In this document: piece by piece, positions 34,119-64,000 of the stretch
How positions within the stretch are numbered: the stretch's first letter is position 1
Layout of the letters: each line of letters begins with the position of its first letter
Source of the DNA: Caldicellulosiruptor obsidiansis OB47
GTDB lineage: Bacteria > Bacillota > Thermoanaerobacteria > Caldicellulosiruptorales > Caldicellulosiruptoraceae
Length of the DNA: 64,000 bases
Direction of reading: 5' to 3'
Assembly (NCBI RefSeq): GCF_000145215.1
Contig: NC_014392.1
Span: forward strand, 1,744,001-1,808,000
The notes under the pieces: model-generated
What the model was told of the DNA's origin: nothing
What the model saw: only the letters and a program-made list of their open reading frames with translations
The model's database searches: none
Made by a program: the position numbers and the translations under genes

Positions 34119-36459
34119 CCGCTAAATTTTCATTTACCTACTTATTATTGATTGCCAAACAGTATTTCATATGTTGCATTAGCTATTGCTATGTCGCACT
34201 GTGCCCAGAACCTGTGATATCTGAACTCCGGTACCTGCCCTGACTTGTATGCCGCCTCTAACTTCGGCCAATCAGGATCTTGTTTGTACTTGCTCCTTAT
34301 GTCTATAAACTTAACTCCACTCTTTATTACATCTCCATTCGGCATCTTCCCTGTCCATCCTGCCGGTATATATACCTCTTGCTCAAAGAACCTCTTGTAG
34401 TCCGCTCTCTTCTCTGGCGCTGATAAACCTTTGTTATCCCTGTACAACTTCCACATCCTGTCCAGCAATTCCTTCGCTAAATTCTTTGCTTCCTCATCAA
34501 ATACCCCATACTTCTTCGTCCCTGCACTATAGTACAACAACGCATTCGCTAGCGACGCTGTTATACCTAAATCTGTACCATAATCAACTACCTTAACGTG
34601 CAAATTCGGATTCCCTGTATATGTCCCCTTCCATGTATCAGGTTGTCCGCTCCAATCAAGCGTCGACGGTATCGCAAATGTCCCATCACTATTCAACTTC
34701 ACTACACTCTTAATCCAGCTTACCCACTTCTCAAGCAGTGCACCTGCATCCTTATCTCCTGTCACATAGTAATACTCCGCTACCCTCTGCATCGACCATG
34801 CCTGGAATCCAAACCATGTGTTGCTGCCAGGATCTCGATATACCGGGTTCGGTTCATACGCCATTCCATAAAATGTCGCTGTACCTGCCGGATATTTCTC
34901 GTACCTGCCATTCCATGAATTTGTCGCGCCTCCTGCTATCGCTCCCTCCGCTGACTGCAACCACCTGTAAAATTCTATCTGCCTCTTCAAACTCTTCGCC
35001 CAGTCGTTCGCTCCGGTCGGCGACTTCGGCTTCATATCACTATCATTCGCTAATGCCCATGCCGCCATCGGATTCTGATATCCAAAGTGCGCATGGCTGC
35101 ACCCTATCTTCCATGACCATGCTCCATCCAATGCTCCGCCCCATGCATAATACCATGACAGCAGATAATGTGCACTGTCATACCCTGTTCCTCCAGCCGC
35201 ATTCTTGTCCTGACATCCTAATGGCTTGAAATACTTGTCAAACATCGCATACCTCAAATAGTCACCCATCTTCGCCGCCTTCGCTACATAGCTGCTTATC
35301 TCATTAAACTTACCTTGCTCCTTCGCCCATACCTTCGCCCAATATGTTGCTTGAATCGCTCTTGCATCCGCATCAGGTGCATCCGTGTATCTCCACTGCT
35401 TCGAATAGTTCTGATCCTTAATAAACAGGTCTAAAAATCCATTCGGTCCGCCCCACTTGAATTCCTCCCAGCTCGGATGCGGCACCGTCTCCCATACAGA
35501 CTCCTCTGGTCCTCTCTGGAACGTATTGATAAATGATGCCCGGCTCACTCCGTCCCCTCTCTTGCCATATCCATACCAGTTGTCTACGTCCATCAACCAG
35601 TGCATACCATACATCAATGTGCTACCATATGTGCTCACAAGTTCATTATGCAACGGGTCTTTGCCAACAGGTACATTAAACTCCAACGGCGATGGATACT
35701 TGTCCGGTGTCTCCCACTCTCCTGCATATGTCGCTGGCTTGTTAGGATCATATGACCTTATCGGCTGATCTTCCGCTGACGGTATCATATACTTCTCTAA
35801 TGTGTCCCATGCTGTCTTAAATTTGCTCCAATCCCCCGTCAACTTCCCATACACTGCCTCCAACCATACATAGTACGAAAATGCCTCACTCGTGGTCAAA
35901 TGACCATAATCAGGTGCTTCGCATATCAGTGTCTCCACCGAATGATATGGTATCCCATCCTGGTTAAAATACCCGTTCGCAGGATCATGGATCTTGTTCC
36001 ACAACCACATAAACCTCTGCCCATATTCGCCAAGCCCGCTCGGTGTGCTGCTAGGTGTCGGTGTAGGCGCAACTGTCACCGTCGGCGTTGGTGTTGGGGT
36101 TGGTGTTGAAGTAGGTGTTAGTGTTGACGTTGGTGTTGGGGCCGGGGTTGGAGTTGGTGTTGGGGTTGGTGTTGCTGTAGGTGCTGGCGTAGGTGTTGGT
36201 GTCGCTACTGGGGCTGCAGTCGCTCCACTCGGCTCCTGACCCCATACCAGCACTCCATCTATATACGCCGTTACCTTCACATTCTCTCCATAACTCGTCA
36301 TGCTCTGTGCCCATGACCAGTCATTTCCCTGATTGTAATTGCTCCAGTCACTCTTGTTAAACCTTATCTGTATCTCCCCTGTGTCCTTCCCAGGCTGCAA
36401 CTGACCCGCTCCACTCTTAAATCCTATCTCTAAATAATAGTCCGCTCCACTTACGCTAC
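34088..36459 (-). repeat. 2.37-kb duplicated block, copy in the GH74-GH48 gene
   Basis: Appears identical to 56867-59238 (constant offset 22779). It covers the terminator hairpin, the whole GH48 module, the linker, and the C-terminal half of the adjacent CBM3. The first difference at the CBM3 side is position 36460 (C here, T in the celA copy at 59239). Confidence 0.88.
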
Positions 36460-39400
36460 CACTCAGCTTCACAAACTTGAATGTCACATTGCTTGCTCCT
36501 ATCTGTGCCCAGTCGCTTACCGCACTCTGTGTCTTGTCTCCATCTACCGTGTACCAGTACCTTATCGTTACCCTGCTCAAATCTATCGCACTGCTACCAC
36601 TATTTACTACCTTCAACCACGGCCTTATCGTGTTCGTCGTAGCATTTGTCTCCATGTTCTTATACAATACCTTTATCTGCCCACCTGTTGCCGGACTGCT
36701 GCTCGGTGTTGGCGTCGGTGCCACCGTCACTGTCGGTGTCGGCGTCGGTGTTGGAGTAGCAGTTGGTGTTGGTGTGGGTGTGGGTGTGGGTGTTGGTGTT
36801 GGCGTTATTGTCACTGTTGGGGTTGGCGTTACTGTTGGTGTCGCAGTTGGTTTCGGTGTTACTGTTGGGGCTGGTGTCGCTCCACTCGGCTCCTGACCCC
36901 ATACCAGCACTCCATCTATATACGCCGTTACCTTCACATTCTCTCCATAACTCGTCATGCTCTGTGCCCATGACCAGTCATTTCCCTGATTGTAATTGCT
37001 CCAGTCACTCTTGTTAAACCTTATCTGTATCTCCCCTGTGTCCTTCCCAGGCTGCAACTGACCCGCTCCACTCTTAAATCCTATCTCTAAATAATAGTCC
37101 GCTCCACTTACGCTACTACTCAGCTTCACAAACTTGAATGTCACATTGCTTGCTCCTATCTGTGCCCAGTCACTTATCGCACTCTGTGCCTTGTCTCCAT
37201 CTACCGTGTACCAGTACCTTATCGTTACCCTGCTCAAATCTATCGCACTGCTACCACTATTTACTACCTTCAACCACGGCCTTATCGTGTTCGTCGTAGC
37301 ATTTGTCTCCATGTTCTTATACAATACCTTTATCTGCCCACCTGTTGCCGGACTGCTGCTCGGCACTGGTGTCGGTGTCGCTGTAACAGTTGGCGTTGGT
37401 GTCACTGTTGGGGTTGGTGTTGTCGTTTGTGTAGGTGTAGGTGTAGGTGTAACACTCGCAGTTGGTGTTGGGGTTGGGGTGGATGTTACTGTTGGAGTCG
37501 GTGTTGGAGTAGGTGACGCAGTTGTTGATACCGGCGTTGATGTTGGAATTGTAGCACTATCAGCAATTTCACCCCATTTTATTCCTAAACCATTAGTAGC
37601 AACGAATACTCTTCCATATACTCTTGGATCTCCAGTAATGTCTGCATTAGCACAACCAAATTGATTATTATCATCATTTATTCTTACCCAACTTGCACCT
37701 GCATCATCAGATCTAAATATTCCTCTGATTCCATTTATCTTTGCATAAGTGTAGATTGCCGGATATGTTTTTCCCTCTGCAGGTTTACCAAACCCAATAC
37801 TTGCTGCTTCCTCTACATTTGCAATTTTTGTAAATGTATAACCACCATCAACCGAATGCCACATTCCATTATTGCCGACTAACCATATATCACCTTCACG
37901 ACCAGGAACAGCCTTAAAGTTCCCGCTTGTTGGCAAGCCAGAAGGTGGTGATTGAACAAAGGTTTTTCCTTTGTCACTACTAATGTAGAATTTCCCATCT
38001 TTAAAAGCATAAAACTTGTTTGGATTAACTCTATCAGAGTATACAATCGCTCCGGAAGGTACATTAGCACACTCATACCATGTATTACCATTATCTGTGG
38101 AATAGGATACAGGTGCACCTTTTGGTGCCCACACAACTACACTAGCATCAGCAGCTGCAGCAACTGTTCCACCTTCTGTCATTCCTTGAGGTTCTTGATT
38201 ACCTTGGAACCATGATTTCCCACCATCATATGAAAAACCAATTCTGTTTGTGTTTGGATTCCATGTTTTGTCAACGTTCCCTACACGCACCATAAAGTTT
38301 GGATTCAATTCAGCGTAATCTATATCAGTAGTCGAACCCATATTGGGTTGAGTATATGTCCAGTTGGGTGCTTTCTCCAAATCATCATGTCTAAACCCTG
38401 CGATATCGTATATTGCACTAAATAAATGTGGTCCGATTGGTGGGCTCACTAATGCTGCAACTGATGTTTCTTCTATTCCAATTCCTTTTACTTTAATTGT
38501 TATCTTTTCACCTTTGTCCCATTTAGTTAAATCATCACACCCATATAACGTAGCACCTGTCCCATATAACATTCTATCAGAGTTAAATGGATCAATCTCA
38601 AGGGCTGCAACCATCCAACCAAGCTTTGGACTTGTCTCGGGAGGAATTGGATTCGTAATACCAAAATTCAACCATGGAGCTGCAGAAATATCCATAGTGT
38701 AGTGAAGCGTTCTGTTAGGATATCCAGCCCATTCCCATATACACTTCCATGTTTCACCACCATCTGTACTACGCCAAATATAAGTATCGGGCCACCATGA
38801 ACTCAAAGCTGCTACCATTACCACTTTTGGATTTTGAGCGTCAACAGCTAATCCTCCATATCCAAAATAAGTATCTTTTGCTGGCATTGGACTTATGTTT
38901 TTCCATTCGCCAGTTTTAGTATTATATCTCCATACTTCTCCATCGTCACCGTTGTAAGGGCCCTGCGTATTGCTATATGTTATATACAGCATCCCATCTG
39001 AACTTAACTTTGCATGTTGTGGAAGTAAACCCGTAGGTTGTCCTGGCAATGCCTCCCATGTTTGCCCACCATCTTTTGTATAGTATATGCTTGTATTTTT
39101 ATCGGCTACCCCTACATAAATCACTTTGCTTCCTTCTCCGGGTTTACCGCTCGTTGGATCAAATACAACCCATACTATACCTGTGATATGATTCAAATAA
39201 TCATAAGGACAATTCGGATCTTCAACATATGTTCCTGGGTTCGGGAAGTTCTCTACTTTTTTCCATGTAACGCCATAATCAGTACTTTTCCATAGTCCAT
39301 TTCCTTCGCGTGTACCTAAATATAAGATACTATTGTTATTCGGATCAATAGCTAATCTCTCTCCCATATTTCGACCGGGCATATTACCGCCCAATTTGAA

Positions 39401-39838
39401 TGGTAAAGGAGTTCGTTCAAATGTATTACCTTTATCTTTTGAACGTAAAAGAACCCCATTCATATTTGTCCAACTATTTGTATAGGTACCTGCAGCAATA
39501 TACAGTCGATTTGGATCAACAGGGTCAGTGGCAATACTCTCCACACCTAACAAATTCCACTCATCATAGCTTACCCAATTCATAAGCTGAGTCCATGTAT
39601 TCCCACCATCTGTACTTCTATAAGCGCCACCAATATCTGTTCTTACATAAACTAGGTTCTTTTCTTTAGGATTGAAAACTATTCCTGTAATAAAACCGCC
39701 ACCACCCTCAATCTTTACATTTTTCCAAATGTACTTTTGAGTAGTGACTACACTCTCCGCCCTAACTGGAATGATTAAGCCATACATAGTTGTGCATAAA
39801 AAGATAATTGCAATAAATAACGCTATACCCCTTCGCAT
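34145..39838 (-). CDS. Secreted GH74-CBM3-CBM3-GH48 enzyme (CelF-type)
   Basis: 1897 residues. The signal peptide (about 1-28) is followed by a GH74 seven-bladed propeller pair (about 29-760) with many BNR-type repeats such as [13 protein letters not shown]. Then a Pro/Thr linker, CBM3 (about 830-986), a linker, CBM3 (about 1049-1205), a linker and GH48 (about 1260-1897). GH74 members attack xyloglucan and beta-glucan; GH48 is a reducing-end cellobiohydrolase. CBM3 modules bind crystalline cellulose. The GH48 part appears identical to that of celA. The start ATG has GAGGGGGTTAAG before it. The layout equals that of CelF of the genus. Confidence 0.95.
36222..36690 (-). repeat. CBM3 module copy 1 (GH74-GH48 gene, next to GH48)
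   Basis: One of eight nearly identical CBM3 coding repeats of about 470 bp, from [15 protein letters not shown] to [12 protein letters not shown]. This copy carries the variant KTQSAVSDW with LSGSVSG, shared with 54154-54622. Confidence 0.9.
36879..37347 (-). repeat. CBM3 module copy 2 (GH74-GH48 gene, after GH74)
   Basis: Variant KAQSAISDW with LSSSVSG, the same combination as the last CBM3 of CelA at 59001-59469. Confidence 0.9.
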
Positions 39839-40110
39839 CTTAACCCCCTCTTTTCAGTTATGGATTTAATAGTCTGAGTTAGGTAATTGAAAATTATACT
39901 TTATCTTGAGTTTCTATCACCTCACTTCTGTCTTTCGTATTGTATTAAATTTTATACACGCTTCCTATCATGTATCATTTTATATTTTTAAGGCAAATTA
40001 ATTCTATCATTATTTTGCAAATAATTATTACAATATTGCTCTTTTTTATATTAACAATTGTTGCATTTTTCCTAAACTTCTATGCAAGTAGAATCAATTT
40101 AAATTTTTGC

Positions 40111-46407: not shown

Positions 46408-49400
46408 TTATTTAGCACCAATCGCATTAGTTTTATACCATTGTCCCCATGGAGTTGGATTATTGGGATCCCAATTGTTTACCATGTCCAAATAACCTAC
46501 ATAGCTCGAATTGCCACACCAAGACCAGCTAAAAAGTCCTATCTTGTATTGTTTTGCATACCTGACAATAGCTTCCTCGTCAGGATCACCATCTGTATGC
46601 TGATGCCCAAACTCCCCAATAACTAATGGCAGCCCTTTCTCCACAAATGACTTGATATATTCTTCTACCTTGCTTGCTGTATTGTATACACCGTACATAT
46701 GAATCGAAAATACCAAATTGCGCAGCGGATCTGCTTCCATTATGCTCTGGGCATTGTCTCTCATAGTATTAGACCAATCCTGCCCCCAGTTCGGCGCATC
46801 CACCATTATCGTGTGTTTGAATCCTGCATCCCTTAGCGCTTTTATAGCATTCTTCGTGTCATTAACCCAGTTTTGATAGTTATTGTTCCCATACGGCTCA
46901 TTACCAATGTTTATTATAACAAAATCCTCATTACCTTCTAACACACTCTTTATCTCTTTCCAGTATTCTACTGCTTGTGCCAATGAACATGCTGCCCCGT
47001 CCTCACCATATCCTGTCGTGTCGTGAACTTCTAATACAATAGCTCTGAACCCAAGACTTCTTGACAATGATATAATATTTGCCACTTCGCTTGCTGGTAT
47101 CTTCGTCCATCGGTAGCCATTACTCAGCACTACCCTCACAGAGTTCATACCCCATGACCTTATTCCTCGCAATGCCGTCTCCAGTTTATCTCTGTACCAG
47201 CAATGTGCGTGATTGGTTCCTATTAATGTGCTAGTATCTATTCTCACTATCCCACTGCTCGGCGTTGGTGTAGGTGTCGGTGTAACTGTCACCGTCGGCG
47301 TTGGGGTTAACGTTGGGGTTGGTGTTGGAGTAGGCGTTGTTGTCACTGTTGGGGTTGGCGTTACTGTTGGTGTCGCAGTTGGTTTCGGTGTTACTGTTGG
47401 GGCTGGTGTCGCTCCACTCGGCTCCTGACCCCATACCAGCACTCCATCTATATACGCCGTTACCTTCACATTCTCTCCATAACTCGTCATGCTCTGTGCC
47501 CATGACCAGTCATTTCCCTGATTGTAATTGCTCCAGTCACTCTTGTTAAACCTTATCTGTATCTCCCCTGTGTCCTTCCCAGGCTGCAACTGACCCGCTC
47601 CACTCTTAAATCCTATCTCTAAATAATAGTCCGCTCCACTTACGCTACTACTCAGCTTCACAAACTTGAATGTCACATTGCTTGCTCCTATCTGTGCCCA
47701 GTCACTTACCGCACTCTGTGCCTTGTCTCCATCTACCGTGTACCAGTACCTTATCGTTACCCTGCTCAAATCTATCGCACTGCTACCACTATTTACTACC
47801 TTCAACCACGGTCTTATCGTGTTCGTCGTAGCATTTGTCTCCATGTTCTTATACAATACCTTTATCTGCCCACCTGTTGCCGGACTGCTGCTCGGTGTTG
47901 GCGTCGGTGCCACCGTCACTGTCGGTGTCGGCGTCGGTGTTGGAGTAGCAGTTGGTGTTGGTGTGGGTGTGGGTGTGGGTGTTGGTGTTGGCGTTGTTGT
48001 CACTGTTGGGGTTGGCGTTACTGTTGGTGTCGCAGTTGGTTTCGGTGTTACTGTTGGGGCTGGTGTCGCTCCACTCGGCTCCTGACCCCATACCAGCACT
48101 CCATCTATATACGCCGTTACCTTCACATTCTCTCCATAACTCGTCATGCTCTGTGCCCATGACCAGTCATTTCCCTGATTGTAATTGCTCCAGTCACTCT
48201 TGTTAAACCTTATCTGTATCTCCCCTGTGTCCTTCCCAGGCTGCAACTGACCCGCTCCACTCTTAAATCCTATCTCTAAATAATAGTCCGCTCCACTTAC
48301 GCTACTACTCAGCTTCACAAACTTGAATGTCACATTGCTTGCTCCTATCTGTGCCCAGTCACTTACCGCACTCTGTGCCTTGTCTCCATCTACCGTGTAC
48401 CAGTACCTTATCGTTACCCTGCTCAAATCTATCGCACTGCTACCACTATTTACTACCTTCAACCACGGTCTTATCGTGTTCGTCGTAGCATTTGTCTCCA
48501 TGTTCTTATACAATACCTTTATCTGCCCACCTGTTGCCGGACTGCTGCTCGGTGTTGGCGTCGGTGCCACCGTCACTGTCGGTGTCGGCGTCGGTGTTGG
48601 AGTAGCAGTTGGTGTTGGTGTGGGTGTGGGTGTGGATGTCACGGTTGACGTCGGAGCTGGGATGGAACCTGCTGAACCGCCTGGTTCTTGTCCCCATACC
48701 AAGGTATCACCCTCATAAGCTGCTATGAATTTATTCTTGCTTAAATCTCTAGTTAATCCTGCATAAGATGGATCATTTGTTGGATCCCAAGGAACACCTT
48801 GAGGTACAGATATCTTAAATTGCGCTTGTTTCTTGTGTTCTACTTCTCCACCTGGATATATTTTTGTTCCTGTAAAGTCCACCAGTATATAATAAAGGTT
48901 TTTCGACGCGTTCCAAACATAAGGACCCGATATTTTAGCCCCTTCTGCATAATAAGTGTCTACTTTAACAACGTCAGCACTATACCCTGCATTGATTAGC
49001 TCACTAAGATCGATGAAGTATTTGAACTTTAAATTTTCTGTTACACGTGGAGGCCATCCTGTTCGATTGTAGATATATGAAATTATTTCCGTATAATTTG
49101 CACCTTGCGAATTACCAAATTTAGATTCAACAAAAATTTCATCGTTAGTTGGTGTCTCTATTGCTTTAAAATTAGGTATGGGTTCTCCTCCATACATAAG
49201 GTACATCTTTGCCAATGCACCAACAATGCCGGCATTGTAATCGCAAGCAACCTCGTTTTGTACGTAGTCTGTAATGTCGTCATTATAGCTGTCATCTGAG
49301 CCTGGGCCTCCCACTAAAGCACCATAAAGTATATGACGATGATATTCTGGTATTCGCATACTATTAGCCCATGAGCTATGAGCATTTCTATGATGTGGAT

Positions 49401-50589
49401 GTTGTGGATAATTATGGCCAAATCCTACTAAAAAGCTTCTACCTGTTGAACCTAATGCATAGTTAATCTGACTCTCACCAAATTTTAGATAAGCTGTTCG
49501 CTTATATTCTGGACATCCCGACCAATCTGCATAAACAAACGCTAAGAAAGCAGCAGTTGTAGCATACCTAAGTGAGCCCCACCCTGTTAACCATGCAAGA
49601 CCCTTAGGTGTATATGTTATGTTATATGTCCAATGATTAAGATTTCTTTCAACAGCACCTTTATATATGTCTTTATTAGTAATTTTTGCTAAAAGTAATA
49701 TTGCTCCGTATCTTACATCGTCCCAGCACTGTGTCCATGTATTTGTGCCACCGGCATATTCTGCCATAAGCGCCTCAGCTTTATCTAAATATGATTTGTC
49801 ATTTGTCGCAAGATATAACCACACTGCCGCCCAACCAAGATCATCTATGAAACCACCTGATGTATAAAAGCCCGTTGCTGCTATGTACCCTGTATCGCTG
49901 CGAGTTCTGTCTGCAAAATCAAAAAGATCTATCGCATGCTGTAAATATATGTCCGCTTTCTGTTTATTTCTCTCACGTATTACAATTGATGCAGCTGCTA
50001 AAGATGCTGCTGTCTCAGCAACAACTGAACTAGCAGGGTTATTCAAATCACACTTGTATGCAGGTCGTTTCATTTGCATTACTTCTGCCGGACCCCAGAA
50101 ATTGTGGTCTTCAATTGGATCACCAACTTGATAATAGTATACATACTTTAATGGATGACATTTTACAAAGTAGTCGTTTACCCATTCTATCTGATTGAGT
50201 ATATGTTCAAGCTGCCCGCTCTTCTCAAATGCTGTTCTGTACTCATAAACCGCCCATGCAAGCATTGATGCGCTATATGACATTGGAAGATTAAACTTTA
50301 CATGATCACCTGCATCATGCCAACCACCAGTGAGGTCCAAACCAACATCTTTACCATCATTCAGACCTGAATCTCCACGCCAGTTGTTACGAACCCATGA
50401 CGGTAGTTTACCCGACATTTGGAATTCGTAAAACATAATCGCCTTTTGAAGAGCTTCACCATAGTTAAATGTTGTTGCCGCTTTAGCCTTGTTGTAATTA
50501 TTTCCATGAAAGAAAAGAATGACTTGTAGGAGAAACACTACAATTAAGGATACGGTTAACCCTCTTAGCACTTTTTTAGTTCCCCTCAT
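46408..50589 (-). CDS. Secreted GH9-CBM3c-CBM3-CBM3-GH5 enzyme (CelC-type)
   Basis: 1393 residues. Signal peptide (about 1-38), GH9 endoglucanase (about 40-480) with [18 protein letters not shown] and the acid in [17 protein letters not shown]3c (about 500-650, starting [12 protein letters not shown]) is fused to GH9 as in processive endoglucanases. Two CBM3 modules (about 684-840 and 903-1059) in Pro/Thr linkers follow, then a C-terminal GH5 (about 1105-1393) with [11 protein letters not shown] (acid/base) and LVIGEFGHQ (nucleophile). The GH5 resembles subfamily 8 mannanases. The product would attack cellulose and mannan together. GAGGGGGTTAG precedes the ATG. Confidence 0.94.
47411..47879 (-). 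repeat. CBM3 module copy 3 (GH9-GH5 gene, next to GH5)
   Basis: Variant KAQSAVSDW with LSSSVSG; appears identical in protein to copy 4. Confidence 0.9.
48068..48536 (-). repeat. CBM3 module copy 4 (GH9-GH5 gene, after CBM3c)
   Basis: Variant KAQSAVSDW with LSSSVSG. The linker on its GH5 side ([20 protein letters not shown]) recurs in the GH10-GH5 and GH74-GH48 genes. Confidence 0.9.
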
Positions 50590-50974
50590 TTTTACTTCTA
50601 ACCCCCTCTTCTTTCTTTTCTAATAAATCTTTCTTTCTAATAAATTTCTTTGATTTTGATTTGACTTAAACTGTTTGTCATACTCTCTTCAATGTAAATT
50701 ATTAGTAATTACTAATGATTTTGAACGCTTCACCTCCTCGTATCATATAATTATCAAATCACTTAAAACTTCATATCTCAATTGGTACATTAAATTATTA
50801 GTACCAATTGATTACTGGAAACTCACCTTTATAGCAAAGCTTTTCTTAAAACACTCACTTCTCAAAAATTGAATATTAAAATTGACTGCTACAACTTAAA
50901 TTTGCCCTTTATCTTTGGTAAACTAAAATCAGAAAAAGTTTAAGCCTGATTTAGTTTATTTGGATATTTTTTGA
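50590..50974. other. Upstream region of the GH9-GH5 gene
   Basis: AT-rich. It contains the GAGGGGGTTAG ribosome-binding motif at 50601-50611 and a near-repeated TCTTTCTAATAAAT. The gene's promoter should be here or was displaced by the IS110 element. No confident promoter is identified. Confidence 0.4.
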
Positions 50975-52733: not shown

Positions 52734-55700
52734 TTATTTTGTGACCGGTACTGGTGCCGGTTCATTGTTATTATAGTATATTGTAACGTTAATATTCTTT
52801 CCATTCGTACCTAGAGGTCGCTTGTGATCTAATCCAACAAATCTACCTTGGCTGTCTTGCCACAGAGCAGGTTTTAAGAATGTGTATTTACTCTCATCCC
52901 ATGTTGTGAAATCATACTCTACCAATCCGCCTGTATCACCTGAATTTGCGTTAAAGCACCAGAATGTATGATGTATATGATTTTCTATAATATAGTCACG
53001 CAAACATTTCATCCACTTTTCATTATCTCCTCCATCAAGGTATCCACCCCATTCTCCAATCAACAAGGGTGCTATATTTTCTTCCATAATGTATACCCAA
53101 TTTGGACGCCAGCAGTCTTGAAGCAATGTTTCTTTCGTGAAGCCTGGATAGAACCACGGTTGTTGGTAAACAGACGGCCCATAATCATGAGGTGAATATA
53201 CCACTTTGTTTTGATATTTACCAAGGTTAATTGGATATTTCCTTACACCTCGCAGGTTTCCACCCCACCACGTCGAGTAGTAATCGCTTGAGGATTTAGA
53301 AGTCCATGTCACATCATCTTTCGGATATGCTTCAATTCCCTCTATTACGATGAGAAGATTTGGATTTATGTTGAGTATTCCTTTCGCACACGTCTCAGCC
53401 GCATACTTCCAATTATTTATATCTGTTGAATCATCCCATTTTGCAAAAGTCGCATCTTGCCAAGGTTTGCCATGTGGCTCATTTTTTAGGTCGAAGGCAA
53501 TTATTGTATCGTCATTTTTATATCTATTCGTAATCCATTCGCAAGCTTTGTAGAAATCTTCTGGGGTGTATTTGTCATCATACCATACTGGATATATATG
53601 TCCCATCGCATCTGTTTTTATGCTATGGATGTCCAACATAATTTTCAATCCGACCTCTTTACATGTCTGCACAACAATATCAAATACTTCAAGACTATTT
53701 TTACCCTCAAGCTCTGGATTTACATAGTAGTTTATGTTGGGCTTTGGATAAATACCTTGTGACCAGTTCAGAATCAACTCTGCAGAGATTGGTACTCTCA
53801 ATAAGTTAAATCCTCTATTTGCTATTTCTGCAAGAGTACTTTTAAGATTACAACTCCAAACACCATCGAATACATTCGTTCCTGTATTGTAACCGAACCA
53901 GTTCACACCTGTTAGCCAAACAGGTCTGCCGTCTTTATCAACAATCTTGTTGCCGCTTACATAGAGCCAGTCATCATTCGTATCGTCCGAATATGCCGGT
54001 GTGGATGTTGGAGCGGGAGTTGGAGTCGGGGTAGCTGTGATTGTTGGAGTTGGCGTGATTGTTGGAGCAGCTGTTGGTGTTGCTGTCGCTGTCGGTGTTG
54101 GAGTTGCTGTAGGTGCTGGCGTAGGTGTTGGTGTCGCTACTGGGGCTGGTGTCGCTCCACTCGGCTCCTGACCCCATACCAGCACTCCATCTATATACGC
54201 CGTTACCTTCACATTCTCTCCATAACTCGTCATGCTCTGTGCCCATGACCAGTCATTTCCCTGATTGTAATTGCTCCAGTCACTCTTGTTAAACCTTATC
54301 TGTATCTCCCCTGTGTCCTTCCCAGGCTGCAACTGACCCGCTCCACTCTTAAATCCTATCTCTAAATAATAGTCCGCTCCACTTACGCTACCACTCAGCT
54401 TCACAAACTTGAATGTCACATTGCTTGCTCCTATCTGTGCCCAGTCGCTTACCGCACTCTGTGTCTTGTCTCCATCTACCGTGTACCAGTACCTTATCGT
54501 TACCCTGCTCAAATCTATCGCACTGCTACCACTATTTACTACCTTCAACCACGGTCTTATCGTGTTCGTCGTAGCATTTGTCTCCATGTTCTTATACAAT
54601 ACCTTTATCTGCCCACCTGTTGCCGGACTGCTGCTCGGTGTTGGCGTCGGTGCCACCGTCACTGTCGGTGTCGGCGTCGGTGTTGGAGTAGCAGTTGGTG
54701 TTGGTGTGGGTGTGGGTGTGGGTGTTGGTGTTGGCGTTGTTGTCACTGTTGGGGTTGGCGTTACTGTTGGTGTCGCAGTTGGTTTCGGTGTTACTGTTGG
54801 GGCTGGTGTCGCTCCACTCGGCTCCTGACCCCATACCAGCACTCCATCTATATACGCCGTTACCTTCACATTCTCTCCATAACTCGTCATGCTCTGTGCC
54901 CATGACCAGTCATTTCCCTGATTGTAATTGCTCCAGTCACTCTTGTTAAACCTTATCTGTATCTCCCCTGTGTCCTTCCCAGGCTGCAACTGACCCGCTC
55001 CACTCTTAAATCCTATCTCTAAATAATAGTCCGCTCCACTTACGCTACTACTCAGCTTCACAAACTTGAATGTCACATTGCTTGCTCCTATCTGTGCCCA
55101 GTCGCTTACCGCACTCTGTGTCTTGTCTCCATCTACCGTGTACCAGTACCTTATCGTTACCCTGCTCAAATCTATCGCACTGCTACCACTATTTACTACC
55201 TTCAACCACGGTCTTATCGTGTTCGTCGTAGCATTTGTCTCCATGTTCTTATACAATACCTTTATCTGCCCACCTGTTGCCGGACTGCTGCTCGGTGTTG
55301 GCGTCGGTGCCACCGTCACTGTCGGTGTCGGCGTCGGTGTTGGAGTAGCAGTTGGTGTAGGTGTTGGGGTTGGCGTAATAGTTGTAGTTGGAGCTGGTGT
55401 TGTTGATGCCCCTGATGCTTCTATTACTGCCCAATAAGCTGGTTTTGCACTGTAATCCTCAAAAAACAATAATGGCCAATCATTCTTGCCATTAAAAGAT
55501 CTTAACCATGAATAATCATCTTTTAATCCCCAAAAAGTTACACTTTTTACAACATCCTTATACTTCTTCAACATTGTAAATAATTCTTTGTACTTCTGAG
55601 CTTGCTTCTGAAGCAAGTCCTGCGGTGGTGTCGAATAGTTTTCGCTTGATCCGTAATTGTATAAACTCATATCAAGCTCTGTTATATGAATTTCTATGCC

Positions 55701-56531
55701 TGGTATTGAACTGAATAACTTTATGCTATTCTCTATTTCGCTAACTGATGGCCAGTTAACATTTATATGGCATTGCATTCCAATACCATGTATTGGTATT
55801 CCTTTTGATTTTAAATTTTTAACCATGTTGTATATGAAATCTCTTTTCTTGGAAATCTCAGTATTATAGTCATTATAAAATAGCTTTGCGTTGGGATCTG
55901 CTTCATGTGCCCATATAAATGCTTTCTCAATGTATTCTGGTCCACAAATCTCATACCATGTCGAACGCCTATAACCATCAGACTGATTCTCATCAATAGC
56001 TTCATTTACAACGTCCCATGCGTATACTTTTCCCTTATACCTTCCTACAACATCATATATATATTGCTTCAATCTTGCTAACAACGCATCCTTGGTTAAC
56101 CTTTGTCCACTGCTGTCTTTAAAAAACCAATCAGGCGTCTGGCTGTGCCACACTAAAGTATGTCCTCTAATTCCTATATTGTTCGTATTCGCAAAGTCTA
56201 CAAAGGCATCAGCAGTGCTAAATCTATAATTTAAGCCTGTACTTGTTTGCCCAGCTAATAAACTTTCTGGCTTCATTTCATTCTCCGCTGTTAGACTGTT
56301 AAAATGTTTCAATACCATCCTTCTGTCTGTATCGTTGCTCAAACATTTTGCAGGTATTGCTACACCTATCCTAAAATCATTCTTATAACTCTCATATAAA
56401 CTTGGAATGCTCCAGTCAGGTGCTGCTTTGGTTTCAATTGGATAATAACTCATTGTACCAAACAAACAAATACTTGCTATAAATATAATCAATGTCAAGC
56501 GAGCTACAATTTTAACTAATTTTTTCTTCAT
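52734..56531 (-). CDS. Secreted GH10-CBM3-CBM3-GH5 enzyme (CelB-type)
   Basis: 1265 residues. Signal peptide (about 1-36), then GH10 xylanase (about 38-375) with [22 protein letters not shown] (acid/base) and [10 protein letters not shown] (nucleophile). Two CBM3 modules (about 417-573 and 636-792) follow in Pro/Thr linkers. The C-terminal GH5 endoglucanase (about 855-1240) has FDLKNEPHG (acid/base) and [13 protein letters not shown] (nucleophile). The layout is that of CelB in the genus and attacks xylan and cellulose. GAGGGGGTTAG stands before the ATG. It lies downstream of celA, with an imperfect hairpin between them. Confidence 0.95.
54154..54622 (-). repeat. CBM3 module copy 5 (GH10-GH5 gene, next to GH5)
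   Basis: Variant KTQSAVSDW with LSGSVSG, as in copy 1. Confidence 0.9.
54811..55279 (-). repeat. CBM3 module copy 6 (GH10-GH5 gene, after GH10)
   Basis: Hybrid variant KTQSAVSDW with LSSSVSG: it shares the first marker with copies 1 and 5 and the second with copies 2, 3, 4, 7 and 8. Confidence 0.9.
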
Positions 56532-56679
56532 ATTATCTACTAACCCCCTCTTTTTATTTTACCTTTTATTTTACATTTAGATGAAAAATATTCTAACAAC
56601 ACAATATCTACCGTTATATACAATCATTATGAAATAATATTCCTTACGTCCCAATAATAGCTACAATTCTGCGCTATAA

Positions 56680-56903: not shown

Positions 56904-59238
56904 AATTTTCATTTACCTACTTATTATTGATTGCCAAACAGTATTTCATATGTTGCATTAGCTATTGCTATGTCGCACTGTGCCCAGAACCTGTGATATC
57001 TGAACTCCGGTACCTGCCCTGACTTGTATGCCGCCTCTAACTTCGGCCAATCAGGATCTTGTTTGTACTTGCTCCTTATGTCTATAAACTTAACTCCACT
57101 CTTTATTACATCTCCATTCGGCATCTTCCCTGTCCATCCTGCCGGTATATATACCTCTTGCTCAAAGAACCTCTTGTAGTCCGCTCTCTTCTCTGGCGCT
57201 GATAAACCTTTGTTATCCCTGTACAACTTCCACATCCTGTCCAGCAATTCCTTCGCTAAATTCTTTGCTTCCTCATCAAATACCCCATACTTCTTCGTCC
57301 CTGCACTATAGTACAACAACGCATTCGCTAGCGACGCTGTTATACCTAAATCTGTACCATAATCAACTACCTTAACGTGCAAATTCGGATTCCCTGTATA
57401 TGTCCCCTTCCATGTATCAGGTTGTCCGCTCCAATCAAGCGTCGACGGTATCGCAAATGTCCCATCACTATTCAACTTCACTACACTCTTAATCCAGCTT
57501 ACCCACTTCTCAAGCAGTGCACCTGCATCCTTATCTCCTGTCACATAGTAATACTCCGCTACCCTCTGCATCGACCATGCCTGGAATCCAAACCATGTGT
57601 TGCTGCCAGGATCTCGATATACCGGGTTCGGTTCATACGCCATTCCATAAAATGTCGCTGTACCTGCCGGATATTTCTCGTACCTGCCATTCCATGAATT
57701 TGTCGCGCCTCCTGCTATCGCTCCCTCCGCTGACTGCAACCACCTGTAAAATTCTATCTGCCTCTTCAAACTCTTCGCCCAGTCGTTCGCTCCGGTCGGC
57801 GACTTCGGCTTCATATCACTATCATTCGCTAATGCCCATGCCGCCATCGGATTCTGATATCCAAAGTGCGCATGGCTGCACCCTATCTTCCATGACCATG
57901 CTCCATCCAATGCTCCGCCCCATGCATAATACCATGACAGCAGATAATGTGCACTGTCATACCCTGTTCCTCCAGCCGCATTCTTGTCCTGACATCCTAA
58001 TGGCTTGAAATACTTGTCAAACATCGCATACCTCAAATAGTCACCCATCTTCGCCGCCTTCGCTACATAGCTGCTTATCTCATTAAACTTACCTTGCTCC
58101 TTCGCCCATACCTTCGCCCAATATGTTGCTTGAATCGCTCTTGCATCCGCATCAGGTGCATCCGTGTATCTCCACTGCTTCGAATAGTTCTGATCCTTAA
58201 TAAACAGGTCTAAAAATCCATTCGGTCCGCCCCACTTGAATTCCTCCCAGCTCGGATGCGGCACCGTCTCCCATACAGACTCCTCTGGTCCTCTCTGGAA
58301 CGTATTGATAAATGATGCCCGGCTCACTCCGTCCCCTCTCTTGCCATATCCATACCAGTTGTCTACGTCCATCAACCAGTGCATACCATACATCAATGTG
58401 CTACCATATGTGCTCACAAGTTCATTATGCAACGGGTCTTTGCCAACAGGTACATTAAACTCCAACGGCGATGGATACTTGTCCGGTGTCTCCCACTCTC
58501 CTGCATATGTCGCTGGCTTGTTAGGATCATATGACCTTATCGGCTGATCTTCCGCTGACGGTATCATATACTTCTCTAATGTGTCCCATGCTGTCTTAAA
58601 TTTGCTCCAATCCCCCGTCAACTTCCCATACACTGCCTCCAACCATACATAGTACGAAAATGCCTCACTCGTGGTCAAATGACCATAATCAGGTGCTTCG
58701 CATATCAGTGTCTCCACCGAATGATATGGTATCCCATCCTGGTTAAAATACCCGTTCGCAGGATCATGGATCTTGTTCCACAACCACATAAACCTCTGCC
58801 CATATTCGCCAAGCCCGCTCGGTGTGCTGCTAGGTGTCGGTGTAGGCGCAACTGTCACCGTCGGCGTTGGTGTTGGGGTTGGTGTTGAAGTAGGTGTTAG
58901 TGTTGACGTTGGTGTTGGGGCCGGGGTTGGAGTTGGTGTTGGGGTTGGTGTTGCTGTAGGTGCTGGCGTAGGTGTTGGTGTCGCTACTGGGGCTGCAGTC
59001 GCTCCACTCGGCTCCTGACCCCATACCAGCACTCCATCTATATACGCCGTTACCTTCACATTCTCTCCATAACTCGTCATGCTCTGTGCCCATGACCAGT
59101 CATTTCCCTGATTGTAATTGCTCCAGTCACTCTTGTTAAACCTTATCTGTATCTCCCCTGTGTCCTTCCCAGGCTGCAACTGACCCGCTCCACTCTTAAA
59201 TCCTATCTCTAAATAATAGTCCGCTCCACTTACGCTAC
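56867..59238 (-). repeat. 2.37-kb duplicated block, copy in celA
   Basis: Partner of 34088-36459. In this copy the hairpin at the outer edge is complete on both sides, whereas in the other copy the identity starts in the middle of the stem. Confidence 0.88.
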
Positions 59239-62185
59239 TACTCAGCTTCACAAACTTGAATGTCACATTGCTTGCTCCTATCTGTGCCCAGTCACTTATC
59301 GCACTCTGTGCCTTGTCTCCATCTACCGTGTACCAGTACCTTATCGTTACCCTGCTCAAATCTATCGCACTGCTACCACTATTTACTACCTTCAACCACG
59401 GCCTTATCGTGTTCGTCGTAGCATTTGTCTCCATGTTCTTATACAATACCTTTATCTGCCCACCTGTTGCCGGACTGCTGCTCGGCACTGGTGTCGGTGT
59501 CGCTGTAACAGTTGGCGTTGGTGTCACTGTTGGGGTTGGCGTTACTGTTGGTGTCGCAGTTGGGGTCGGTGTTACTGTTGGGGCTGGTGTCGCTCCACTC
59601 GGCTCCTGACCCCATACCAGCACTCCATCTATATACGCCGTTACCTTCACATTCTCTCCATAACTCGTCATGCTCTGTGCCCATGACCAGTCATTTCCCT
59701 GATTGTAATTGCTCCAGTCACTCTTGTTAAACCTTATCTGTATCTCCCCTGTGTCCTTCCCAGGCTGCAACTGACCCGCTCCACTCTTAAATCCTATCTC
59801 TAAATAATAGTCCGCTCCACTTACGCTACTACTCAGCTTCACAAACTTGAATGTCACATTGCTTGCTCCTATCTGTGCCCAGTCGCTTACCGCACTCTGT
59901 GCCTTGTCTCCATCTACCGTGTACCAGTACCTTATCGTTACCCTGCTCAAATCTATCGCACTGCTACCACTATTTACTACCTCCAACCACGGCCTTATCG
60001 TGTTCGTCGTAGCATTTGTCTCCATGTTCTTATACAATACCTTTATCTGCCCACCTGTTGCCGGACTGCTGCTCGGCACTGGTGTCGGTGTCGCTGTAAC
60101 AGTTGGCGTTGGTGTCACTGTTGGGGTTGGGGTTGGGGTTGGTGTTGTCGTTTGTGTAGGTGTAGGTGTAGGTGTAACACTCGCAGTTGGTGTTGGGGTC
60201 GGTGTAGCAGTTACTGTTGGTGTTGGTGTTGGTGTTGCTCCAGAAGTTCCTGGTTCCTCACCCCATACTTTTACATCTCCATCATAAAGTGGAATATATT
60301 TAGTTTTAACAACTGAACCACTTGAAACTCCCTTTATATCCTGGAATGAATAGTCGTTAGAATTATCCCACTGTACATTCTGTGGCGCTGCAATTCTAAA
60401 TTGAACTTCTTTCTTATATTTGTCTTGGCCACCTGGATAAATCAATGTGCCAGTAAAGTCTACTAAAATGTAGTATATATTCTTGCTTGCATCCCATACA
60501 TAAGGTCCACTTACTTTTGCACCTTGATTATAATTGGTACTCAAGGTTAATTGATTTGGTGAATATCCTGCTTTAATTAATTCGCTCAGGTCAACAAAAT
60601 ATCTAAATTTAAGCTTATCTGTTGCTCTGGCAGGCCAACCACTTTGGTTATTAACTATCGCTTTAATTTCAATAAAGTTAGTTCCGGATGCATTTATACC
60701 AGCTTCAACAAAGAATTCGTCGTTTGTTGGGGTTTCAATAGCTTTGAAGTTTGGTATTGGATTGCCACCATACAACAGATACATCTTTGCTAATGCACCC
60801 ACAAACCCTGCATTATAATCACATGCAACCTCGTTGTTCACATAGTTGCTTATATCATCTGTGTAGCTATCATCAGAGCCCGGACCGCCTACAAGTGCTC
60901 CATACAATGTATGTCTATGGTATGATGGTATACTCTGACTGTCTGCCCACGAACTATGTGCAGTTCTGTGATGTGGTCTCTTGGGTGGATTTGTACCAAA
61001 TCCTACAACAAAACTTCTTCCGGCTGAACCCAATGCATAATCTATCTGGCTTTCTCCAAATTTTCTATATGTTTCTTTTTTGGTGCTTGGACAGCCAGCC
61101 CAATCGCTATAAACAAATGCCAAAAATGCTGTAGTTGTTGCATATCTCAACGAACCCCACTGATCAAGCCATGCCAACCCTTTTGGAGTATACTTAATTC
61201 TTTCCCCATTGTAACCTGTTGTCCAATAATCTAAGTGCATCTCAATAATTTGTTTGTAAGTATCTTTTCCAGTAATTTTCGCTAACAACAATGCCGCACC
61301 ATTATGAACGTCATCCCAGCAATGAGCCCACTTGTAGTCGATTGTATTGCTGCCTGAAATTTTGGGCCAGTTTTGAACGTATGATTCTGCCTTTGTTAAG
61401 TACGTTGAATCATTTGTTGCCAAATACAACCATACCGCTGCCCATGACAGTTCATCATAGAAACCGCTCCATGAATTATAATATCCATTTGCAGCTGTGT
61501 AACCCGAATCGCTTTTTGTAACTTCCGCAAACTCGTATAAATCTTTTGCATGTTGCAAATATGTCGCTGCTTTAGTGGGATTTCTGTCTTTCAAAACAAT
61601 TGAGGCCGCTGCTAAAGAAGCTGCCGTCTCTGCTACTACAGTAGAACCTGGACTGCTTTGTGTAACTTTAAATGAAGGCCTTTCCATTTGCATAACCTCA
61701 GCAGGACCCCACCATGCATGGTCCTTGCTGCCATCTCCAACCTGGTAGTAGTATACATATTTGCTTGGATGGCATTTTACAAAATAGTCATTAACCCATT
61801 CGATTTGGTTTAAGATATGTTCCAATTGACCACTCTTGACAAATGCATCTTTGTATTCATACACTGCCCATGACAACATTGTACCAGTGTATGACATTGG
61901 AAGGTTAAACTTGACGTGATCACCTGCGTCAAACCAACCACCTGTCAAATCAAGTCCATTGTCTTGACCATCTTTTAATGCTGAGTCGCCACGCCAGTTG
62001 TTGCGTACCCAACTTGGAAGTTTACCAGACATTTGAAATTCGTAGAACATAATAGCTTTTTGTAAAGCTTCCCCATAGTTAAATGAACCAGCCCGAACCT
62101 CCTGCCATGGTTTAACCCCATATACCACTCCTAAAATAAATATGAAGGTTACAACCATTGCAATAATTCTTCTGTAACGCTGCAT
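56924..62185 (-). CDS. celA: Secreted cellulase CelA, GH9-CBM3c-CBM3-CBM3-GH48
   Basis: 1753 residues. Signal peptide (about 1-32), GH9 (about 34-480) with [18 protein letters not shown] and the catalytic acid in [13 protein letters not shown], fused CBM3c (about 500-650), and CBM3 modules at about 708-864 and 905-1061 in Pro/Thr linkers. GH48 reducing-end cellobiohydrolase follows (about 1115-1753). This is the architecture of CelA, the main crystalline-cellulose-degrading enzyme of Caldicellulosiruptor: the GH9 endoglucanase cuts chains and GH48 processes them. AAGGAGG precedes the ATG. The roughly 740-nt leader carries a c-di-GMP-I riboswitch, a terminator and another hairpin, so transcription is probably gated by c-di-GMP. 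Confidence 0.97.
59001..59469 (-). repeat. CBM3 module copy 7 (celA, next to GH48)
   Basis: Variant KAQSAISDW with LSSSVSG. Its C-terminal half belongs to the 2.37-kb duplicated block. Confidence 0.9.
59592..60060 (-). repeat. CBM3 module copy 8 (celA, after CBM3c)
   Basis: Variant KAQSAVSDW with LSSSVSG and a unique substitution [10 protein letters not shown] where other copies have [10 protein letters not shown]. Confidence 0.9.
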
Positions 62186-62425
62186 GAAATTCTAACCTCC
62201 TTATTCAGTTTACTATAATTTTTGATTTTATTATATACCAAAAATACTTGCATGCCAATTGATTTTTTTGTCTAATTTGTTTATTTAATTGTCAAAAACG
62301 CAATACGCTATTTCTATTTTTCATTCCTTATACACACTTTTATTCTTTATGCTCTTTTTATTACAAAATTATAACACATATGTTTCTAATATTTTGCATT
62401 ATTTTGCTCTATGGAGGTCAAAAAA

Positions 62426-62553: not shown

Positions 62554-62584
62554 ATATTGGCTGCCTCTGCACGGCAGCCAATAT
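62554..62584 (-). other. Strong hairpin in the celA leader
   Basis: A perfect 12-bp stem, ATATTGGCTGCC / GGCAGCCAATAT, with a 7-nt loop, between the riboswitch terminator and the celA start. It lacks a U tract on either strand. It could protect the mRNA 5' end after processing or be a protein-binding site. A GAGGGGGTTAG motif lies next to it on the plus strand at 62607. Confidence 0.6.
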
Positions 62585-62721
62585 ATATATAAGTATATAT
62601 TGTAAAGAGGGGGTTAGGGGATAGCTTCTTTCAGCGTTACAGAAGAATCTATCTAAATTTTAGATTACTATCTTTATTTATACTTTAACATATGCCTATG
62701 AACCATTCTTTAATTTCATCC

Positions 62722-62756
62722 CAAAAATAAAACGGCGTCGCGCCAGACGCCGTTTT
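62722..62756 (-). terminator. Riboswitch expression-platform terminator upstream of celA
   Basis: A perfect 11-bp stem, AAAACGGCGTC / GACGCCGTTTT, with a 6-nt loop, followed on the minus strand by ATTTTTGG. It lies just downstream of the c-di-GMP-I aptamer and far upstream of celA, where it can only serve as an attenuator. Confidence 0.92.
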
Positions 62757-62785
62757 AACCTTTTCTCAACCCTCTATTAAGCCCG

Positions 62786-62884
62786 AGTAGGTTTCGGCAG
62801 CCTGGCAACCATAGGAAGTTTTTCTTCCGACAGGCCCATGGCTTTGCGCCCCTGCCTTTCGACAGGTTTGCCCTTTCGACCACT
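62786..62884 (-). ncRNA. Cyclic di-GMP-I (GEMM-I) riboswitch upstream of celA
   Basis: Read on the minus strand, it has GGGCAAACC, the GTCGAAAGGC hairpin, GGGGCGCAAAGCC, a second helix closing with GGTTGCCAGGC, and GCCGAAAC. P1 pairs AGTGGT with ACC-ACT around one bulged U. The core is nearly identical to the aptamer at 20539-20644. It is followed by an intrinsic terminator, and a consensus-like promoter stands upstream. Celluloytic output would thereby respond to c-di-GMP; the sign of the response is not deducible by eye. Confidence 0.94.
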
Positions 62885-62931
62885 TACTTCATATTTAATT
62901 TTTTAATTTCTTTATTTCACATTTTAATAAT

Positions 62932-62961
62932 ATTGTAATACTAACACCAATGATTTGTCAA
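62932..62961 (-). promoter_or_regulatory. Putative sigma-A promoter of celA
   Basis: Perfect -35 TTGACA, 18-nt spacer, -10 TACAAT on the minus strand. Transcription would start about 40 nt before the c-di-GMP-I aptamer. Confidence 0.75.
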
Positions 62962-63058: not shown

Positions 63059-63147
63059 GGCTGCCTCCCTCCTGTTTGATATAATAAAAAAGTGTAATAT
63101 TCCATTCAAAAGAAACATCAAAAAACTACCAGGATGGGAGGGCAGCC
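63059..63147 (+). promoter_or_regulatory. Leader stem-loop that can mask the transposase ribosome binding site
   Basis: GGCTGCCTCCCTCCTG (63059-63074) pairs with CAGGATGGGAGGGCAGCC (63130-63147) over 16 bp with two single-base bulges. The right arm contains the GGGAGG ribosome binding site, so a read-through transcript would hide it. Confidence 0.65.
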
Positions 63148-63151
63148 TACT

Positions 63152-64000
63152 ATGAATATTATACCATATCATGAACTCAGAAAAATATCTCCTGAAAAGG
63201 CCAGAGAATTAATTCGAAAAGTATTTGAGGCAAATAACAAAAACATATCAAAAACTGCTAAAATATTAGGTGTATCAAGACACACTGTAAGAAGAGCAGT
63301 ATATGGTCCTGTTGAGGATAAGTCTAGAAAGCCTAAAACTTGCCCTAAAAAACTTTCTTCTGAGCTTGAAAATCTCATTATCCAAGAGGCTAAAAAAACA
63401 GGATTCAGATACAGACGTCTTTCTCTTTATTTATTCAGAAAATATGGCGTTAAAATAAGTGAAAACACGATAAAATCTATTCTCAAAAGAAATAGTGTGC
63501 CGAGAAAGACAAGAAAGACGAAAAAGGGAGAAAGAAGTCTTTACGATTATGAGTCTCTCATCCCATTTTCTGAATTTCAGCTTGATACGAAACATCTTTT
63601 AGACAAAGAAAGCCTCCCAAAAGAAGTATATGAGCACATGATAAAATACAATCTACCGTGTTATGAGTGGAACATGATAGATGTTGCTACAAGGACAAGA
63701 TTTACAGCTTATTCATATGAGCTTTCATCTACTTTTGGTTTTATGTTCATAACATTAGTAGTTTTATGGCTTAGGACACATAATGTAAGAAACCCAATAA
63801 GGATAAGATTAGATAATGGAGCAGAGTTTTGTGGTGGGAGCGAAAAAAAGCTAAAGGAGTGGAATGAGATGTTGTCATTTTTGGGAGTAGAGCTAAATCC
63901 TATTCCACCAAAAGCAAAACACTTGATGGGTATAATTGAAAATTCACATAGAGCAGATGATGAATATTTTTTGATGATTCATGCTGAAAGATGCATAACA
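63152..64000 (+). CDS. Transposase with HTH and DDE integrase core (3' end outside window)
   Basis: 283 codons are open to the window end. An N-terminal HTH (NISKTAKILGVSRHTVRRAV) and a second helical domain (FRYRRLSLYLFRKYGVKIS) precede an rve-type integrase core. Catalytic residues appear in FQLDTKHLL (Asp), RLDNGAEF (Asp) and MGIIENSHRADD (Glu). This resembles IS481/IS3-type transposases. The frame appears intact as far as visible. It lies just upstream of the celA promoter and transcribes away from it. Confidence 0.88.
   Translation, partial: MNIIPYHELRKISPEKARELIRKVFEANNKNISKTAKILGVSRHTVRRAVYGPVEDKSRKPKTCPKKLSSELENLIIQEAKKTGFRYRRLSLYLFRKYGVKISENTIKSILKRNSVPRKTRKTKKGERSLYDYESLIPFSEFQLDTKHLLDKESLPKEVYEHMIKYNLPCYEWNMIDVATRTRFTAYSYELSSTFGFMFITLVVLWLRTHNVRNPIRIRLDNGAEFCGGSEKKLKEWNEMLSFLGVELNPIPPKAKHLMGIIENSHRADDEYFLMIHAERCIT

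Follow-up and report, generated by a model that had tools for sequence, protein, structure and literature searches.

Upstream of the cellulase gene celA of Caldicellulosiruptor obsidiansis OB47 there is an element which, from its sequence, is almost certainly a c-di-GMP-I riboswitch. We consider it reasonably probable that the noncoding RNA gated by this riboswitch represses cellulase translation, and that high c-di-GMP would terminate this RNA and derepress the cellulase. The window, that is, the whole stretch of DNA analyzed, has 64,000 nucleotides (contig NC_014392.1, positions 1,744,001 to 1,808,000), and all coordinates given below refer to it unless a locus is named. The aptamer, its promoter and terminator, the antiterminator pairing, and the antisense complementarity with its conservation have been computed here.

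The riboswitch cassette

The initial annotation described a minus-strand cassette at 62722-62961, formed by a promoter, a GEMM-I aptamer and an intrinsic terminator with a U tract. All three are found in this region:

62932..62961, minus strand: TTGACA-18-TACAAT promoter for the riboswitch RNA, agreeing with the consensus at 11 of 12 positions (pattern scan)
62792..62881, minus strand: c-di-GMP-I (GEMM-I) aptamer
62795..62806, minus strand: aptamer 3' strand GCCAGGCTGCCG, 5' half of the predicted antiterminator, pairing with 62752-62742 once the transcript is cut at the 5' arm of the terminator
62722..62757, minus strand: intrinsic terminator T1, stem 62757-62728 plus U tail (pattern scan)
62752-62742, minus strand: 5' arm and loop of T1, CGGCGTCTGGC, doubling as 3' half of the antiterminator (folding of the cut transcript)

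Comparison with Rfam, the check proposed for the aptamer, gives matches well above the cut-off. With cmscan, the aptamer scores 69.3 bits as RF03167, c-di-GMP-I-GGC (gathering score 59, E 2.5e-14), and 80.7 bits as the parent family RF01051, c-di-GMP-I (gathering score 35); the bits favour RF01051, the E-values tie. Helices P2, with its GAAA tetraloop, and P3 are conserved as helices, with two-sided changes in 9 of 24 pairs among 26 sequences. The celA aptamer also contains GGGCAAACC, CGCAAAGCC and GCTGCCGA, which we take to be the equivalents of the Vc2 ligand contacts G20, A47 and C92, the numbering being matched by hand.

The cassette goes beyond a chance resemblance. Four c-di-GMP-I switches are present in the genome (2.53 Mb, one contig), and seven of the eight celA-bearing Caldicellulosiruptor species have the promoter, the aptamer and the terminator 5' of celA, so the conservation that the initial annotation proposed to look for does exist. 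In these seven genomes, some 650-700 nt separate the riboswitch from the celA start downstream. According to the alignment, its promoter is at the same position in six of the seven orthologues, and three have TTGACA-17-TATAAT. The promoter region of the celA cassette in G003 differs from that of the other species. In this genome (L022 compared with L028), the celA riboswitch seems to have had its promoter and 5' strand exchanged for those of the paralogous switch, and its P1 is poorly paired; gene conversion is a possible source of this replacement.

A transposase-like gene (63134-64000, plus strand) is found between the second tapirin gene and the celA riboswitch, and a similar gene occupies the same place in G011. 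We have ruled out an orphan riboswitch left by the adjoining transposase, because the cassette and the spacer are kept in seven species.

The expression platform

When the transcript is cut at the 5' arm of T1 and folded at 37 C, this arm pairs with the aptamer 3' strand GCCAGGCUGCC in all 26 terminator-type leaders. The antiterminator formed in this way has 10-11 pairs and is 5-13 kcal/mol better than a structure in which the arm is kept free. Antiterminator and terminator are mutually exclusive, with the aptamer strand taking part in the antiterminator (26/26 at 37 C). The terminator sequence depends on the class of leader: AACGGCGTCTGGC for celA, GGCATCTGGC for tapirin and GGCACCTGGC for the small proteins. 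Complementarity to the aptamer 3' strand persists across these three unrelated sequences. In celA-type T1, the 5' arm and the UGGC loop are identical in seven species, and the next two loop bases vary; the UGGC bases are dispensable for the hairpin, still they are identical.

The longer RNA folds into the terminator in the celA-type leaders of G000, G002 and G003. In the tapirin leader L007, the antiterminator stays the calculated minimum even in the longer RNA. Folding at 75 C gives smaller energies, and the antiterminator is then no longer preferred in some switches of the tapirin and small-protein types; the celA copies keep this preference. These folding results make it very probable that the T1 platform belongs to a switch turned off by its ligand. 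Such a ligand-OFF architecture has been reported for c-di-GMP-I elements, for example C. difficile flgB (PMC3649979).

The region between T1 and celA

The initial annotation placed celA next downstream, and no other gene intervenes; yet celA begins about 540 nt beyond T1, and conserved elements located between them were overlooked. The distance from T1 to the celA ATG is 522-573 nt in the seven riboswitch-bearing species (522 nt in C. bescii). Alignment of the 830 nt 5' of celA from the eight celA-bearing species reveals that, apart from the riboswitch, three parts of the spacer are conserved: a proximal promoter block, a hairpin (T2) and a 45-nt antisense block. The features of this region are:

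56924..62185, minus strand: celA, GH9-CBM3-GH48 cellulase (Pfam), main predicted target; its RBS and start pair with the antisense block
62230..62258, minus strand: proximal celA promoter TTGGCA-17-TATAAT, near-consensus (pattern scan)
62604..62648, minus strand: antisense block ATTCTTCTGTAACGCTGAAAGAAGCTATCCCCTAACCCCCTCTTT, 45 nt, between T1 and T2
62648-62632, minus strand: part of the block complementary to celA codons 2-7 (62182-62166), 17 nt
62617-62607, minus strand: part of the block complementary to the celA Shine-Dalgarno (62202-62192), 11 nt
62554..62584, minus strand: hairpin T2, ATATTGGCTGCC-7-GGCAGCCAATAT, which probably marks the 3' end of the antisense RNA or acts as its weak terminator (pattern scan, repeat finder)

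The proximal promoter block is common to all eight celA species, including G008, which lacks the riboswitch. No conserved frame for a short protein gene is seen in the alignment between T1 and celA, and the matches of this spacer to further Rfam families are sub-threshold and due to chance. Another conserved stretch upstream of celA, at about 62435-62365 (minus strand), has an extended -10 TGTTATAAT and is possibly a further celA promoter.

The initial annotation proposed that c-di-GMP controls celA by direct gating. The riboswitch is real and conserved, and its coupling to celA is probable; the direct control of transcription is the part which does not hold well. According to this explanation, the long leader would be the main celA mRNA, shut off by c-di-GMP. 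It agrees with the position of the cassette, on the same strand upstream of celA in seven species with no gene between, and with the usual mode of action of these switches, also found for the second tapirin gene in the same locus. We consider it unlikely for three reasons. First, celA has its own conserved promoter. Second, in the genome-wide 5'-end mapping of C. bescii, the longest mapped 5' UTR among carbohydrate-utilisation operons has 329 nt (PMC8579813), to be compared with a T1 located 522-573 nt upstream. Third, past T1 a long transcript would contain the antisense block and sequester its own celA start. From the sequence, we expect the main celA mRNA to start from the proximal promoter and to be free of the antisense block.

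The antisense block

The reverse complement of the block is AAAGAGGGGGTTAGGGGATAGCTTCTTTCAGCGTTACAGAAGAAT; for comparison, the celA start region in G011 is GAGGGGGTTAGAGATTTTATGCAGCGTTACAGAAGAAT. The duplex between the block and the celA start has a calculated energy of -45.3 kcal/mol, a value reached by none of 1000 dinucleotide shuffles (mean -25.4, sd 3.6, z -5.5). It ranges from -40.8 to -53.9 kcal/mol in all seven riboswitch species. In G008, which has celA and no riboswitch, the block is absent and the duplex is at background level (-22.1 kcal/mol). A repeat finder independently detects a 23-nt inverted repeat between the block and the celA start, with arms 437 nt apart. At 75 C, the calculation continues to favour the dimer between the block and the celA mRNA, by 8-21 kcal/mol. 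The noncoding RNA past the terminator is thus complementary to the translation start of its target, as in antisense RNAs of the AspocR kind.

Compensatory changes between the block and celA were looked for across the species and were not found. Changes in celA codon 2 (CAG or AAG) and in one block base, in G002 and G007, weaken the pairing and are not repaired. The support therefore comes from conservation and co-occurrence, not from covariation. Pairwise identity of the block is about 0.9-1.0, compared with 0.24-0.8 in the adjoining windows, and the block strictly co-occurs with the riboswitch.

The block might also be left over from an inverted duplication that involved the celA start, or be a DNA-binding site, in both cases without a function as RNA and with a nearly inert riboswitch. 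It does resemble an inverted copy of the celA start, and the lack of compensation between species would be expected. Its conservation, far above that of the flanks, and its strict association with the riboswitch argue against this explanation, and a protein operator would have no need of pairing with a Shine-Dalgarno and codons, so we regard it as very unlikely. A function of the antisense block on celA is likely. As the read-through RNA is antisense to the celA RBS and first codons, it should repress celA, an effect opposite in sign to that of a simple OFF switch.

A Shine-Dalgarno shared by cellulase genes

celA heads a cellulase cluster, the glucan degradation locus. The C-rich core of the block, UAACCCCCUCU, is complementary to the 11-mer AGAGGGGGTTA, an unusual Shine-Dalgarno. 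This 11-mer occurs five times in the genome: the block contains one copy in reverse orientation, and the cellulase locus has four copies in sense orientation. The four sense copies are located 2-9 nt before a start codon. Three of them correspond to the following genes:

52734..56551, minus strand: GH10-CBM3-GH5 gene, predicted target, Shine-Dalgarno at 56551-56541
46408..50609, minus strand: GH9-CBM3-GH5 gene, predicted target, Shine-Dalgarno at 50609-50599
34145..39851, minus strand: BNR/Sortilin-repeat (GH74-like)-CBM3-GH48 gene, predicted target, Shine-Dalgarno at 39851-39841

The fourth precedes a 30-codon ORF (56789-56690, minus strand), which seems to be the surviving 5' end of a lost cellulase gene; this gene is intact in related species. 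The flanks of the 11-mer in the genes of the locus are mutually unlike.

In the other six block-bearing species, 19 of 28 further occurrences are at starts in the same locus. Taking 55 kb as the size of the locus, the enrichment has a p value of 0.065 in G009 and of 7e-7 to 3e-5 in the other five. No copies at starts are found in the comparable locus of G008, which has no block. We have also ranked the 35 start regions within the window by their pairing with the block: five starts of secreted CAZymes of the locus are among the top six (p 1.8e-5). The remaining one belongs to an AraC-type regulator (33709, minus strand) with GGGTTAGGGGG near its start. Non-CAZyme genes inside the locus pair weakly.

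Translation alone might be enough reason for the common Shine-Dalgarno to be maintained. For the antisense RNA acting in trans on the other cellulase genes, this sequence evidence leaves the chances slightly short of even. The arms of T2 form a perfect hairpin which is identical in seven species and is found nowhere else in 12 genomes of the genus. Its U tail is interrupted and weak, so the antisense RNA may not end there. Read-through RNA might then always run into celA, the block keeping this long mRNA untranslated, with no sRNA acting in trans and with the distal promoter mainly interfering with the proximal one or insulating it. The weak tail would favour this possibility, as would the strength of the intramolecular pairing: in the long cis transcript, 28-31 of the 37 bases of the start region pair with the block. 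Nevertheless, the T2 arms are conserved to the base, and the C-rich core also fits the starts of four other ORFs, at distances of kilobases; only an action in trans would make use of these matches. An effect restricted to cis is thus improbable.

Other c-di-GMP-I switches

All 12 genomes of the genus which we have searched contain c-di-GMP-I switches. Upstream of celA there are type IV pilus genes and two genes for tapirins, which are cellulose adhesins (PDB 6n2b, 4wa0). An OFF-type switch located between the two tapirin genes directly precedes the second one (L009, 7311-9269, minus strand, switch core 9508). Five other species have similar switches, located upstream of the celA one. The other two switches of the genome precede secreted proteins of unknown family, one of them beside a GGDEF gene. 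The second switch in the window (20547-20637, minus strand) precedes a secreted protein of about 139 aa with no Pfam family (19997-20416, minus strand), which is conserved in the genus and is convergent with a GAF-GGDEF gene (18728-19936). The antiterminator motif is missing from a fourth class of switches (L010, 7857-8840, minus strand; L029; L030). Translational control of a 327-aa secreted protein is suggested in this class by L008 and L029, where CTCCTTATATGGAG, at the end of the aptamer, has its complement in CTCCATATAAGGAGG, which covers the Shine-Dalgarno.

The genome contains six GGDEF domains, and c-di-GMP is made, and has been measured, in the genus (PMC4342205, PMC9933333). Outside the genus, a strict scan for the core motif at 80 GH48 loci, with flanks of up to 7 kb, did not detect c-di-GMP-I elements beside GH48 cellulases. 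RF01051 matches in the genomes behind 39 of these 80 loci gave no evident co-location, the contig numbers being matched in part.

Proposed mechanism

If the main celA mRNA starts at the proximal promoter and lacks the block, the RNA past T1 is best interpreted as repressing the translation of cellulases, and c-di-GMP as activating it. The riboswitch, with its own promoter, would set by transcription termination the output of a noncoding RNA of about 380 nt (from about 62925 to 62548). When c-di-GMP is absent, the aptamer 3' strand and the T1 5' arm would form the antiterminator and RNA polymerase would read on. When it is present, the aptamer would keep its 3' strand, T1 would form, and transcription would end after about 200 nt. 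The read-through part contains the 45-nt antisense to the celA Shine-Dalgarno and first codons, which would block ribosome binding, in trans on the celA mRNA made from the proximal promoter and in cis on any long transcript running on into celA. The C-rich core, matching the Shine-Dalgarno of other cellulase genes in the glucan degradation locus, could extend this action to them. The net result would be that high c-di-GMP switches the repressor RNA off and cellulase translation rises. Binding of c-di-GMP, the OFF direction in the cell, the end at T2, repression and trans action are the steps which we infer. A more tentative proposal, somewhat less than evenly probable, is that a trans-acting sRNA, whose C-rich seed matches a dedicated AGAGGGGGTTA, defines a post-transcriptional regulon of secreted cellulases under c-di-GMP, the messenger of surface attachment.

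According to PMC8579813, the main cellulase locus of the genus has no dedicated transcription factor. If real, an antisense RNA gated by c-di-GMP would be a candidate for this missing control. It would also link attachment to cellulose digestion in the sense expected from physiology: c-di-GMP as an activator of cellulases fits cells which digest cellulose when attached. The model is directly testable in C. bescii, for which genetics is available. It also illustrates that the direction in which a gene responds may differ from what a riboswitch in front of it would lead one to expect.

Comparison with known systems

Regulatory RNAs gated by riboswitches have precedents in Listeria, with AspocR and Rli55 (PMC8079631), and in Clostridium acetobutylicum, with its S-box RNA (PMC9943018). 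In the literature searched, we have not found a riboswitch in such a role tied to celA or to this genus, and the combination of c-di-GMP, an antisense block and a cellulase locus is new to that literature. If confirmed, it would add c-di-GMP to the ligands of riboswitch-gated antisense RNAs, and a multigene set to their targets.

Several c-di-GMP-I systems share parts of this arrangement. C. difficile flgB has the same aptamer family, and c-di-GMP lowers expression past the terminator; switches of this type gate an mRNA, whereas the product gated by the celA switch looks like a regulatory RNA (PMC3649979). Vc1 of Vibrio cholerae precedes gbpA, which codes for a secreted binder of insoluble polysaccharide. 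It differs in its positive cis action on gbpA, within a 225-nt 5' UTR, and the available text reports no antisense block (PMC4744006). In Bc1 of Bacillus thuringiensis, a c-di-GMP-I aptamer is followed by two hairpin terminators; these are 28 bp apart, and no antisense element is reported in the accessible part of the paper, which also states that Bc1 binds c-di-GMP, yet downstream expression is unchanged in vivo (PMC11218506). By analogy, this lack of response in the cell counts as a caution for the celA model.

The S-box antisense RNA at ubiG-mccBA of C. acetobutylicum is similar in that a riboswitch controls an antisense transcript, with a sign opposite to that of a plain riboswitch. It differs in its ligand, SAM, and in its convergent transcription from the 3' end of the operon (PMC9943018). 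The nearest precedent appears to be AspocR of Listeria monocytogenes, where a B12 riboswitch gates an antisense RNA to pocR: The ligand ends the noncoding RNA early, and the full RNA made without ligand represses its target, probably at translation initiation (PMC8079631). The proposed celA system differs in the ligand, c-di-GMP instead of B12. AspocR is transcribed across its target from the opposite strand, whereas the celA system would use a short upstream block in inverted orientation and, unlike AspocR, has a seed which fits several cellulase genes.
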